Part shown: one piece after another, positions 5,250 through 11,436 of the stretch
Numbering within the stretch: position 1 is the stretch's first letter
Layout: each line of letters begins with the position of its first letter
Assembly (NCBI GenBank): GCA_013214575.1
Contig: JABSSD010000209.1
Coordinates: 1 to 64,000 of the forward strand
DNA: 64,000 nucleotides
Direction of reading: 5' to 3'
DNA from: Paracoccaceae bacterium
GTDB lineage: Bacteria > Pseudomonadota > Alphaproteobacteria > Rhodobacterales > Rhodobacteraceae
The notes under the pieces: model-generated
Seen by the model: the letters and a program-made list of their open reading frames with translations, nothing else
Told to the model about the DNA's origin: nothing
The model's database searches: none
Program-made: the position numbers and the translations under genes

Positions 5250-5280
5250 TGTGATCACAGTATTCGGGCTTGTGATCACA
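5250..5280 (-). promoter_or_regulatory. Paired TGTGATCACA operators upstream of sdhC
   Basis: Two exact copies of the 10-bp palindrome TGTGATCACA occupy 5250-5259 and 5271-5280. Their start-to-start distance is 21 bp, two helical turns, with an 11-nt spacer. The proximal copy is 113 bp from the sdhC ATG, and a further half-site CTGTGAT lies on the gene side. The same pair with the same 21-bp spacing occurs upstream of sucC, and one copy occurs upstream of mdh. The natural candidate is an AkgR-type GntR activator of TCA genes; the protein assignment is inference. Confidence 0.8.
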
Positions 5281-5327
5281 AATTTTCAATTTGGAGAAGT
5301 TTTGCAGACTCAGCCCCTTGCCGCAAA

Positions 5328-6005
5328 TCACTGCACGTCACGCAGCTGCGCGGTCTGCCGCGCCACCTCCCGCAGCAGCTTCATGCGGATGCGCGCAGGG
5401 TAATCCGCAAAGCCCCCGGCGGTGGCCACAAAAGCCCCCTCGCCATGGATCACATTTTCATAGAAATAGCTGGTCAGATCGGCATCGCTCTGCTCGATGG
5501 CCAAGGCGTTCACGGTCACCCGCGCCTGGCTCAACGCATCATACAGCTCACGCGGCGCCACCCCTTCGTTAGAGGTGCCATCTCCGGACAGATCAATCAC
5601 CCGCCGCTTACAGTCCGGCACCCTCTCAAACTGCGCCAGAGCCAGTACCAGCGCCTGGCCAATGGCCGTCGAATAATTGCGCCAGGGCCGCTCCAGCCGC
5701 TCGATGCGATCCGCTAATTGCTCTGTGGCGGCAAAATCACCCATCTCGACCCAGCCAATGCTGACCTCTTGACGGGTTGAGCCCGACCACTGGATCACCA
5801 TAACCTGCGCCTTGCCCCGCACCAAAGCCTCGGCCACCACCCCATCGCGCAGGCCGGCCGCCAACCCCTCCATCTGAATGCGGTATTCCTCAGCATCCAC
5901 CGAGCCGGACACATCCACCGCCAGCACCAAAGCCAGATCGCAGGCCAAACCACCGACCGGCGCCCCAATCAGAACCGATAAAATCACAGAACGCAGAAAC
6001 AACAT
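5328..6005 (-). CDS. DUF1194 secreted von Willebrand factor A-like protein
   Basis: The 225-aa protein has a signal peptide (about residues 1-21) followed by a VWA-type fold. The metal-ion-dependent adhesion motif DVSGS is at 31-35, with further ligand-like segments (IDLSGDGTSNEG) later. This matches the DUF1194 family of alphaproteobacterial periplasmic proteins with unknown function. It lies between mesaconyl-CoA hydratase and the sdhC promoter on the minus strand, 190 bp from sdhC. Nothing in the sequence ties it mechanistically to succinate dehydrogenase. Confidence 0.85.
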   Translation of the reverse strand: MLFLRSVILSVLIGAPVGGLACDLALVLAVDVSGSVDAEEYRIQMEGLAAGLRDGVVAEALVRGKAQVMVIQWSGSTRQEVSIGWVEMGDFAATEQLADRIERLERPWRNYSTAIGQALVLALAQFERVPDCKRRVIDLSGDGTSNEGVAPRELYDALSQARVTVNALAIEQSDADLTSYFYENVIHGEGAFVATAGGFADYPARIRMKLLREVARQTAQLRDVQ

Positions 6006-6087
6006 GCGCGTAACTTAACAAGCAAGGCGCAAAAAACGGATCACTTTTTCGCCATTCGCCATTCGCCGCCCAGCGCCCAGGATCCGT

Positions 6088-6135
6088 CCTTCATCTGGCC
6101 AAAAATATCCCCGGGGTCTGGGGGCAGCGCCCCCA
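6088..6135 (+). repeat. Dispersed intergenic repeat, copy A
   Basis: The block reads CCTTCATCTGGCCAAAAATA, then TCCCCGGGG, then the stem GGGGGCAGCGCCCCC at 6120-6134. The same architecture recurs at 18961, 29337 and, inverted, 42469, with a partial copy near 50641. It lies between the mesaconyl-CoA hydratase and DUF1194 genes. Confidence 0.7.
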
Positions 6136-6155
6136 GCCATCAGCCGCGCCGCAGA

Positions 6156-9306: not shown

Positions 9307-9624
9307 ATGATCAAGTCAATACTCAAACTGACTATGAGCTTAGGTTTCATAGCATTGGCCCCTCAGCAGGCATCCGCTGAACAAAACAGAAATTGCGCCC
9401 CCCGCGAGGCAGTCGTCGAGCGTCTGGCCAGCACCTATGGTGAAAGCCGACAGAGCATCGGACTGGGCGAACAGGGTATGGTCATCGAAACCTTTGCCTC
9501 GGCAGATACCGGCACCTGGACCATCACTGTCACCACCCCCAATGGCTTAACCTGCCTGGTGGCGTCGGGGCAGTCCTGGGAGGAACTGGCCGAGGCATTG
9601 CCGCCCCAGGGCAACGACGCTTAG
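9307..9624 (+). CDS. Small secreted protein of unknown function
   Basis: The 105-aa protein has a signal peptide (basic MIKS, hydrophobic core, cleavage likely after ASA at 24). The mature part has two cysteines (NCAPREAVVERLASTYGE and GLTCLV), which could form one periplasmic disulfide. The residue pattern, including GTWTITVTTPNGLTCLVASGQSW, resembles small conserved periplasmic proteins common in Rhodobacterales, but I cannot name the family. It lies upstream of mdh on the same strand, with a 12-bp-stem palindrome after its stop that suggests separate transcription. Confidence 0.75.
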   Translation: MIKSILKLTMSLGFIALAPQQASAEQNRNCAPREAVVERLASTYGESRQSIGLGEQGMVIETFASADTGTWTITVTTPNGLTCLVASGQSWEELAEALPPQGNDA

Positions 9625-10016
9625 AATACCCGGCTCAGAACGGGATCTGGTTTTTGGGGGTATCGGCCCCCAAAAACCACCGTTGCAACCTGGGCCTCAA
9701 CAACCGGCACGGGAATCGATAGGGTTGCGCTGCCGCGCTTATCGCGAATTCTCGCTCAATTTCCCGCCTGAATGCGCCGCCACCTCGCTTGAATGCGCCG
9801 CTACACCGGTCCCTGTGATCACAAATCGGAAAAACATTATCGCGCTTGTCGGCATTTCCCACGGGCCCTAACCCCCTAGTTTACAAGTTCTTTAGCGTTA
9901 TCAGCCACAAACCGGTCAGGTTGCTGCGGCGCCGCGCTGCAGCGCAGAACTCTTGCACGCCAGCGCGGAACCCCGTAGCCAACCGGCAATTTCAACCGGA
10001 CCGGAGACATATTCCC
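9625..10016 (+). promoter_or_regulatory. mdh upstream region: hairpin, direct repeats and one TGTGATCACA
   Basis: No gene is visible in these 392 bp. GGTTTTTGGGGG at 9649-9660 pairs with 9667-9678, a palindrome that may end the upstream gene. TGAATGCGCCGC occurs twice, at 9769-9780 and 9790-9801, 21 bp apart. One TGTGATCACA palindrome lies at 9814-9823, about 193 bp before the mdh ATG. The last element matches the paired sites before sdhC and sucC. Confidence 0.65.
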
Positions 10017-10979
10017 ATGGCCAGACCCAAAATCGCCCTCATCGGCGCAGGTCAGATTGGTGGCACCCTAGCCCATCTCGCCGCAATGAAAGAACTCGGC
10101 GACGTCGTTCTTTTCGACATTGCCGAAGGCACCCCGGAGGGCAAAGCGCTCGACATCTCGCAGTCCGGCCCCTCCGAAGGCTTTGACGCCACCCTGAAGG
10201 GCACCCAGTCCTACGCCGATATTGCAGGCGCCGACGTCTGCATCGTCACTGCCGGTGTACCGCGCAAACCCGGCATGAGCCGCGATGATCTGCTGGGCAT
10301 CAACCTGAAAGTGATGAAATCCGTTGGCGAAGGCATCCGCGACCACGCCCCGAACGCCTTTGTGATCTGCATCACCAACCCGCTGGACGCCATGGTCTGG
10401 GCGCTGCGCGAATTCTCAGGCCTGCCCCACGCCAAGGTCTGCGGCATGGCCGGCATTCTCGACTCCGCGCGCTTCCGCCACTTCCTGGCGGACGAGTTCA
10501 AGGTGTCAATGAAAGACGTCACCGCCTTTGTGCTGGGCGGCCACGGCGACACCATGGTGCCACTGACCCGCTACTCCACCGTTGGCGGCATTCCACTGCC
10601 CGATCTGGTATCGATGGGCTGGACCACCCAGGAAAAACTGGACGCAATCGTTCAGCGCACCCGGGATGGCGGCGCCGAAATCGTTGGCCTGCTGAAAACC
10701 GGTTCGGCATTTTATGCGCCCGCCACCAGCGCCATCGAAATGGCCGAGGCCTTCCTGAAGGACCAGAAACGCGTGCTGCCCTGCGCCGCTTACGTTGATG
10801 GCGCTCTGGGCCTGAACGGCATGTATGTTGGCGTTCCCACCGTGATCGGTGCCGGCGGTATCGAACGTGTGATCGACATCCAGATGACCCCTGACGAGCA
10901 GGCCATGTTCGACAATTCAGTCAATGCTGTCAAAGGCTTGGTTGATGCATGCAAGGCAATCGACGGCTCGCTGTCCTAA
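10017..10979 (+). CDS. mdh: Malate dehydrogenase (NAD, LDH-like type)
   Basis: Mdh oxidises malate to oxaloacetate in the TCA cycle. I place the start at the ATG at 10017, which gives [16 protein letters not shown] and 320 aa, the usual length; longer in-frame extensions add non-homologous residues. The NAD loop GAGQIGG is at 10-16, and [12 protein letters not shown] near 173-184 holds the catalytic histidine. [11 protein letters not shown] carries the substrate arginine region. GGAG lies about 12 nt upstream of the start. A TGTGATCACA site upstream and a strong terminator downstream suggest a single-gene unit. Confidence 0.97.
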
Positions 10980-11003
10980 TCCGTCAGCCTGTCTACAGAC
11001 CTC

Positions 11004-11034
11004 GGGCACGCCAGATCAATGGCGTGCCCTTTTT
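11004..11034 (+). terminator. Rho-independent terminator of mdh
   Basis: GGGCACGCC at 11004-11012 pairs perfectly with GGCGTGCCC at 11021-11029 around an 8-nt loop and is followed by TTTTT. It is 25 nt past the mdh stop codon. Confidence 0.9.
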
Positions 11035-11436
11035 GTTTGCAGATCAATCCGGGCAGAAGGTCCTGATCTCTGCGGCGCCTTGGGAGCCATAAGATGGCGG
11101 CCGATGGCCCGGTGAAAAGCTGGTAAATCTAATAGGCTGCCAACCGGCAAACACCCGATACGGCCCGCTCTTTGCAGTGGTCCCGACCCGGGCTCAGAGA
11201 CCCTCCCGGCACAGCGATGTCGCGTTTCACCATAAAGCGGCGAAAACCGACAGCAGCACCGCAAACGAATCACTTTTGCAGATGATGCATTAATTTGTGA
11301 TCACACGCTCAAAAGCTGTGATCACAAATTCCGAAAATCTTAGCTATTTCACCGCCTCCTGTAAAATAACCCTTTAACCAAAGGGGCTATCACAGCGTAT
11401 AAACACCACAATCGCAGTCAGACGGGACAGTTTCAA
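11035..11436 (+). promoter_or_regulatory. sucC upstream region, 400 bp
   Basis: I see no gene. The left half is GC-rich without clear signals. The right part has the paired operators (separate entry) and then an A+T-rich stretch around 11340-11400, including TGTAAAATAACCC, that probably contains the suc promoter. Confidence 0.5.
11296..11326 (+). promoter_or_regulatory. Paired TGTGATCACA operators upstream of sucC
   Basis: TGTGATCACA is present at 11296-11305 and 11317-11326. The start-to-start distance is 21 bp and the spacer 11 nt, exactly as upstream of sdhC. The proximal copy ends 110 bp before the sucC ATG, against 113 bp at sdhC. Flanks are also shared: AATTT before the distal copy and AAAT after the proximal copy. 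Confidence 0.82.

Follow-up and report, generated by a model that had tools for sequence, protein, structure and literature searches.

AkgR, a regulator of the GntR family, is reportedly the subject of a 2015 mBio paper by Imam, Noguera and Donohue, whose title is said to name central carbon and energy metabolism, and that original paper may already describe operator pairs of the kind considered here. Among the literature matches listed, none described the pairs, which is no indication that the pairs are unpublished. An excerpt of PMC6365646 counts GTGATCAC as one of the AkgR sites of Rhodobacter sphaeroides and calls AkgR an activator, and since this text ties GTGATCAC to AkgR, the regulator and the motif are already known. 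The same excerpt presents PS417_07240, a GntR regulator from a deoxyribonate cluster of Pseudomonas simiae, which is 32% identical to AkgR, has GTGATCAC as a conserved palindrome close to the start codon of its own gene and is proposed to control the catabolic cluster, not TCA genes (PMC6365646). Among regulons of other types, an excerpt of PMC5343134 predicts that those of PdhR and PsrA in Shewanellaceae, the latter regulator belonging to the TetR family, include sdh and other TCA genes.

The DNA analysed here is a 64-kb stretch (hereafter the window) of a genome of the family, in which copies of the 10-bp palindrome TGTGATCACA precede sdhC, mdh and sucC. The core GTGATCAC is common to these operators and, according to the excerpt of PMC6365646, the sites of AkgR of R. 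sphaeroides; what comes here from genome comparison, set against AkgR, is the spacing of the operator pairs, their phasing with the promoter and the site at the regulator's own gene (the self-site). The candidate regulon of the window has predicted TCA targets in common with PdhR and PsrA, which are not known to use the TGTGATCACA operator. A motif spotted by eye in this way becomes a testable regulon for a central energy pathway, with the regulator gene named and promoter elements predicted, in a bacterial family to which many marine and phototrophic species belong.

Operator copies in the window and the genome

Scanning the window returned five exact copies of TGTGATCACA (Table 1) and no further one, exactly as the original prediction, made from the sequence alone, had claimed. 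Matches with at most one mismatch numbered seven, and in 100 dinucleotide shuffles of the window the exact palindrome appeared 0.04 times on average and once at most. The window holds nine occurrences of the core GTGATCAC, and four of these lie apart from the operator sites. At sdhC and at sucC, the two copies lie 21 bp apart start to start with an 11-nt spacer, and the proximal copy ends 113 bp ahead of the ATG at 5136 on the minus strand (sdhC) or 110 bp ahead of the ATG at 11437 (sucC), a geometry that had likewise been read correctly.

Table 1 Operators, genes and candidate promoter elements in the window.
Feature	Position	Strand	Basis
sdhC, first gene of the succinate dehydrogenase operon	4753..5136	-	TIGR02970, above curated cut-off
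Putative -10 of sdhC, TAAAAC	5165..5170	-	Conserved TA..Aa block, 16 bp after -35
Putative -35 of sdhC, GTGACA	5187..5192	-	[GT]TGAC[AT] conserved at 61-64 bp
Operator, sdhC proximal, TGTGATCACA	5250..5259		Exact match
Operator, sdhC distal, TGTGATCACA	5271..5280		Exact match, 21 bp from proximal
Single operator before mdh, TGTGATCACA	9814..9823		Exact match, 193 bp ahead of ATG
mdh, malate dehydrogenase	10017..10979	+	TIGR01763, above curated cut-off
Operator, sucC distal, TGTGATCACA	11296..11305		Exact match
Operator, sucC proximal, TGTGATCACA	11317..11326		Exact match
Tentative -35 of sucC, TTTAAC	11373..11378	+	TT[TA]A element conserved at 51 bp
Tentative -10 of sucC, TATAAA	11398..11403	+	Seen in the window
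sucC, first gene of the suc operon	11437..12630	+	NF001913, above curated cut-off

A scan of the whole genome (5,586,975 bp in 218 contigs), which had been proposed together with the prediction, found seven exact copies of TGTGATCACA, namely the five of the window, C197:86346 and C80:5733. For a genome of such size, 2.6 copies were expected from the base composition of the window and 5.0 from a first-order Markov model, so there is no clear excess in number, and the placement is the non-random part. Six of the seven are accounted for by sdhC, sucC, mdh and the regulator's own gene, and five fall within 6 kb of 5.59 Mb. The spaced pattern GTGATCAC-N10..15-GTGATCAC occurred only twice genome-wide, as the sdhC and sucC pairs. 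With at most one mismatch to TGTGATCACA, 162 matches were counted in the genome. The near-consensus YGTGATCACR gave 24 sites, seven of them exact; the other 17 all fall within reading frames of at least 100 aa and were therefore not counted as further regulon members, although this reading-frame test is weak in a GC-rich genome where long frames overlap on both strands. The copy at C80:5733 (L001 1501-1510) lies upstream of the part of an AraC-like regulator gene that encodes its conserved domains; no support for a role was found, and it is probably there by chance.

CRP-type sites consist of the half-sites TGTGA and TCACA separated by a 6-bp spacer. The half-sites of TGTGATCACA abut without a spacer, and a CRP-type reading was ruled out on this ground.

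Candidate promoters downstream of the pairs

Downstream of the sdhC pair, the element [GT]TGAC[AT] was present in 57 of 64 genomes, at 0.91 per sequence versus 0.10 in shuffles. It occurs 58 times in all, and 50 of these occurrences begin 61-64 bp from the centre of the proximal operator. In the anchored alignment, a TA..Aa block lies 16 bp beyond it. With these two blocks as putative -35 and -10, the sdhC transcript would start near 5158, and the operator centres would be located near -96 and -117. The other eight occurrences begin at 40, 41, 51, 52, 53, 72, 84 and 218 bp; leaving aside the one at 218, these seven lie about one or two helical turns from 62.5 bp (mean cosine 0.86 at 10.5 bp, p ~0.0002), by a helical-phasing test devised after the data had been seen. 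When the test was restricted to the four exceptions that also have a -10, p was 0.004. Placement on the same face of the helix, which the original prediction had suggested from the window alone, is thus supported by the comparison across genomes.

At sucC, [GT]TGAC[AT] was not enriched downstream of the pair (3 of 75 genomes), and no promoter was fixed there. The anchor of a different element, TT[TA]A, was present in 34 of the 75 genomes, and in 24 of these the element begins 51 bp from the centre of the proximal operator; it is tentatively assigned to the sucC promoter.

Two further features lie close to the sdhC pair. On the minus strand, a half-site-like TGTGATTTTT (window 5238-5247) follows the proximal operator at 12 bp start to start, and a gene with a DUF1194 / von Willebrand A domain (window 5328-6005), which precedes sdhC and shares its strand, has its 3' end at a distance of 48 bp from the distal operator.

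The regulator gene and its self-site

The exact copy at C197:86346 stands on a separate contig, 7 bp ahead of the ATG of a 216-aa GntR/FCD regulator. This protein scored above the cut-offs of PF00392 and PF07729 and so combines an N-terminal GntR HTH with a C-terminal FCD domain, which places it in the FadR subfamily. Its closest solved relative by sequence is the distant McbR of E. coli (structure 4p9f, E 7e-21 over residues 18-211 of 216). To our knowledge, no role in TCA control is known for McbR. FadR-subfamily operators mostly have 3 or 2 nt between GT and AC, and exceptions exist, according to an excerpt of PMC4494728; GTGATCAC has 4 nt and thus departs from this trait, which is typical of the subfamily but does not define it. 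Like the C197 regulator, PS417_07240 of P. simiae has GTGATCAC near its own start, and unlike it, a catabolic cluster is the proposed target in the excerpt of PMC6365646.

A survey of the self-site retained 80 loci from 469 confirmed relatives. In all 80, the core lies within 82 bp upstream of the regulator match, and in 75 the full 10-mer is exact. A TTGA[CT] box precedes the core in 79 of the 80 loci, with a gap of 13 nt in 73. With the usual promoter spacing, this box would place the -10 over the operator, an arrangement from which self-repression and a leader that is very short or missing would be expected. A -35-like TTGACG is found upstream of the self-site on C197, and given this element and the 7-bp gap between operator and ATG (L007 1494-1510), the mRNA of the regulator may have little or no leader. 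Among divergent orthologues the self-site was present in 19 of 39, so that the autoregulatory loop is not universal. The genome also encodes a paralogous GntR/FCD protein (at C137, 41% identical to the C197 regulator), and such a paralogue, 37-45% identical, is present in 32 of the 90 genomes described below.

AkgR had been named as the natural candidate by the original prediction, and this proposal gains support from the exact copy on the promoter of a GntR/FCD gene, from the co-occurrence of regulator and pairs over 90 genera and from the excerpt of PMC6365646. We use the name AkgR-type with high but not full confidence.

Co-occurrence of regulator and operator pairs across the family

We sampled 90 genomes of the family, one per genus, searched them for the regulator, SdhC and SucC, and took the upstream regions. 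A genome was counted as regulator-positive when its best match had at least 50% identity, which held for 79 of the 90 genera; G054, at 41%, was counted as negative. Sites at sucC and sdhC were counted with up to two mismatches.

Among the 85 genomes scored at sucC, a pair at 20-21 bp was present in 75 of 75 positives and in one of ten negatives. That one, G019, has no regulator match in a genome that is 91% complete; another negative (G017) has a lone eight-of-ten match, and the remaining eight have nothing. At sdhC (87 genomes), the 20-21-bp pair was found in 69 of 78 positives, while no site was seen in any of the nine negatives. The nine positives without such a pair comprise one with a 19-bp pair (G045), four with a single site (G007, G012, G040, G058) and four without any site (G030, G033, G085, G087).

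When exact-core pairs were sought genome-wide, 79 of the 90 genomes had one, that is, 78 of 79 regulator-positive genomes versus one of 11 negative ones; the 11 genomes lacking it are ten regulator-negative genomes and the positive G040. The association of regulator and pair gave a Fisher p of 2e-11, a value that ignores kinship. On a tree of 70 Mdh proteins (two of 72 were left out as too short), absence of the regulator requires six changes, and well-supported branches force four or more of these, with bootstrap values that had not settled. A kinship-aware test on four independent pairs gave three in the same direction, one without difference and none opposite, a number of pairs too small to reach significance, and the presence or absence of regulator and pairs follows kinship in part. 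As a control, the reversed pattern was sought in all 90 genomes and yielded zero pairs; because it contains CTAG and may be rare in itself, we relied instead on position and co-occurrence. In this sample, genera with the regulator gene nearly always have the pairs and genera without it hardly ever do, and hence the regulator most likely controls the citric acid cycle by way of these sites.

The geometry of the pairs is also well kept. In the scan for exact cores, which allowed spacings of 19-21 bp, 57 of 64 pairs at sdhC and 68 of 75 at sucC were at 21 bp, and the other 14 were at 20 bp. Between genera, the 11-nt spacer is 29% identical at sdhC and 36% at sucC, compared with 25% in shuffles; across these alignments the spacer is kept in length and nearly free in sequence.

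Further pairs and the single site at mdh

With spacings of 18-23 bp allowed in the genome-wide pattern, the 90 genomes hold 145 pairs, 139 of which are those at sdhC and sucC. One genome (G042, L295 1493-1647) has an extra 21-bp pair 123 bp ahead of a fumarase C gene. Among the pairs assigned to genes, it is the one additional 21-bp case that does not belong to sdhC or sucC. G044 has two 18-bp pairs, both within reading frames, and G037, G061 and G071 have one pair each where sucC or both genes were not located.

Beyond this sample, a regulator orthologue was found in four of 289 genomes of the class, all four in the family and each with two pairs. Outside the family, four of the 289 have one pair each (G236, G103, G105, G291). 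G236, which represents a different family of the class, has a 21-bp core pair (L251 992-1020) just ahead of a different GntR/FCD gene, and together with the Pseudomonas palindrome this points to a core common to a wider set of GntR/FCD regulators. On the opposite side of this pair is a TonB-receptor-like gene, named by eye. Inspection of the G103 pair (L250) showed no clear target.

The single site before mdh has a much narrower distribution. The mdh gene was contained in 72 of 85 sucC regions, and among the 72 genomes with mdh in the fetched region, the core was absent upstream of mdh in the 71 other genera, with poor upstream strings in three (only 92 bp in G033; invalid in G002 and G087, where the gene start lies beyond the region edge). 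A nine-of-ten match precedes mdh in G076. Of two near relatives, Zongyanglinia huanghaiensis CY05 (L274) has the site, likewise 193 bp ahead of mdh, and in Parasedimentitalea denitrificans CY04 the stretch from the sdh pair to the suc pair is free of exact copies, as judged by position. By this comparison the mdh site is lineage-specific, common to one of the two near relatives, and no core member of the regulon; either it was gained recently or it is a local accident. Thus, where the original prediction had counted mdh in the regulon, the exact copy is there but core membership did not stand. Its wider claim, a local TCA regulon under one dimeric regulator, fared similarly: a set of genes with a shared regulator is strongly supported, but the pair is nearly family-wide in the sample and not only local.

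Proposed mechanism and alternative explanations

We consider it very probable that sdh and suc are activated by an AkgR-type regulator bound at the phased operator pairs, and that this regulator represses itself. In this mechanism, TGTGATCACA would be the operator of the AkgR-type GntR/FCD regulator encoded on contig C197, and two dimers would occupy the paired operators ahead of sdhC and sucC, separated by two helical turns and thus facing the same side of the DNA. The bound dimers would activate transcription through a contact that depends on the helix face, succinate dehydrogenase would thereby be coupled to the suc operon, and from the single self-site over the -10 the protein would repress its own gene. 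The signal may be a TCA intermediate. The modes are read from positions: phased pairs far upstream suggest activation, and a site over the -10 suggests repression. The comparison shows operator sites at a constant spacing, their joint presence with the regulator gene, the phasing of the sdhC element and the position of the self-site; binding, cooperativity, activation over repression and the TCA-intermediate signal are inferred.

The sign of control is the point on which another reading deserves most weight, since the same regulator and sites might instead repress sdh and suc, by looping or by hindering another activator, with relief by a TCA intermediate. Repressors are common in the FadR subfamily, and repression of the regulator's own gene is itself predicted from where the self-site lies. 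However, the pairs stand well upstream of the putative promoter elements, at the inferred -96 and -117 in the case of sdhC, and AkgR is termed an activator in the excerpt of PMC6365646, which makes repression of sdh and suc unlikely. Occupation of the pairs by a different protein, for example the 37-45% identical paralogue, is less probable still and would come as a surprise. A related GntR/FCD protein does exist in this genome and in roughly a third of the sample, and the core ahead of a different GntR/FCD gene in G236 implies that related proteins may share it, but in 48 genomes with a pair no match to the paralogue was found at E 1e-40, G054 has the paralogue only and no pair, and two neighbourhoods of the paralogue (L206 and L207) contain no exact copy.

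The idea that the copies are chance occurrences or selfish repeats without function draws on the genome total, which is near the chance estimate. It has to account for the crowding of five of the seven copies into 6 kb, for the conservation across genera and for sites and spacing that are kept around nearly random spacers, and we regard it as barely credible; a chance origin of the pairs was rejected on the cross-genus co-occurrence, the reversed-pattern control (zero pairs in 90 genomes, for a pattern that may itself be rare) and the kept spacing.

Starting from activation of sdh and suc by the AkgR-type regulator, we lean towards a family-wide design rule. A FadR-subfamily regulator would act on the TCA cycle through pairs two turns apart, on a fixed face and several turns upstream, and a single operator over its own -10 would limit its amount. 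The spacer would be free in sequence and not in length, loss of the regulator would mean loss of the pairs, and a further gene might be recruited by a 21-bp pair at a similar distance, as the fumarase gene of G042 may have been. The genera without regulator and pairs offer a natural experiment in alternative control of sdh and suc. Two genomes, G029 and G048 (L133, L134, L156), have neither the regulator nor the pairs, though their SucC proteins are 84-85% identical to that of the window.
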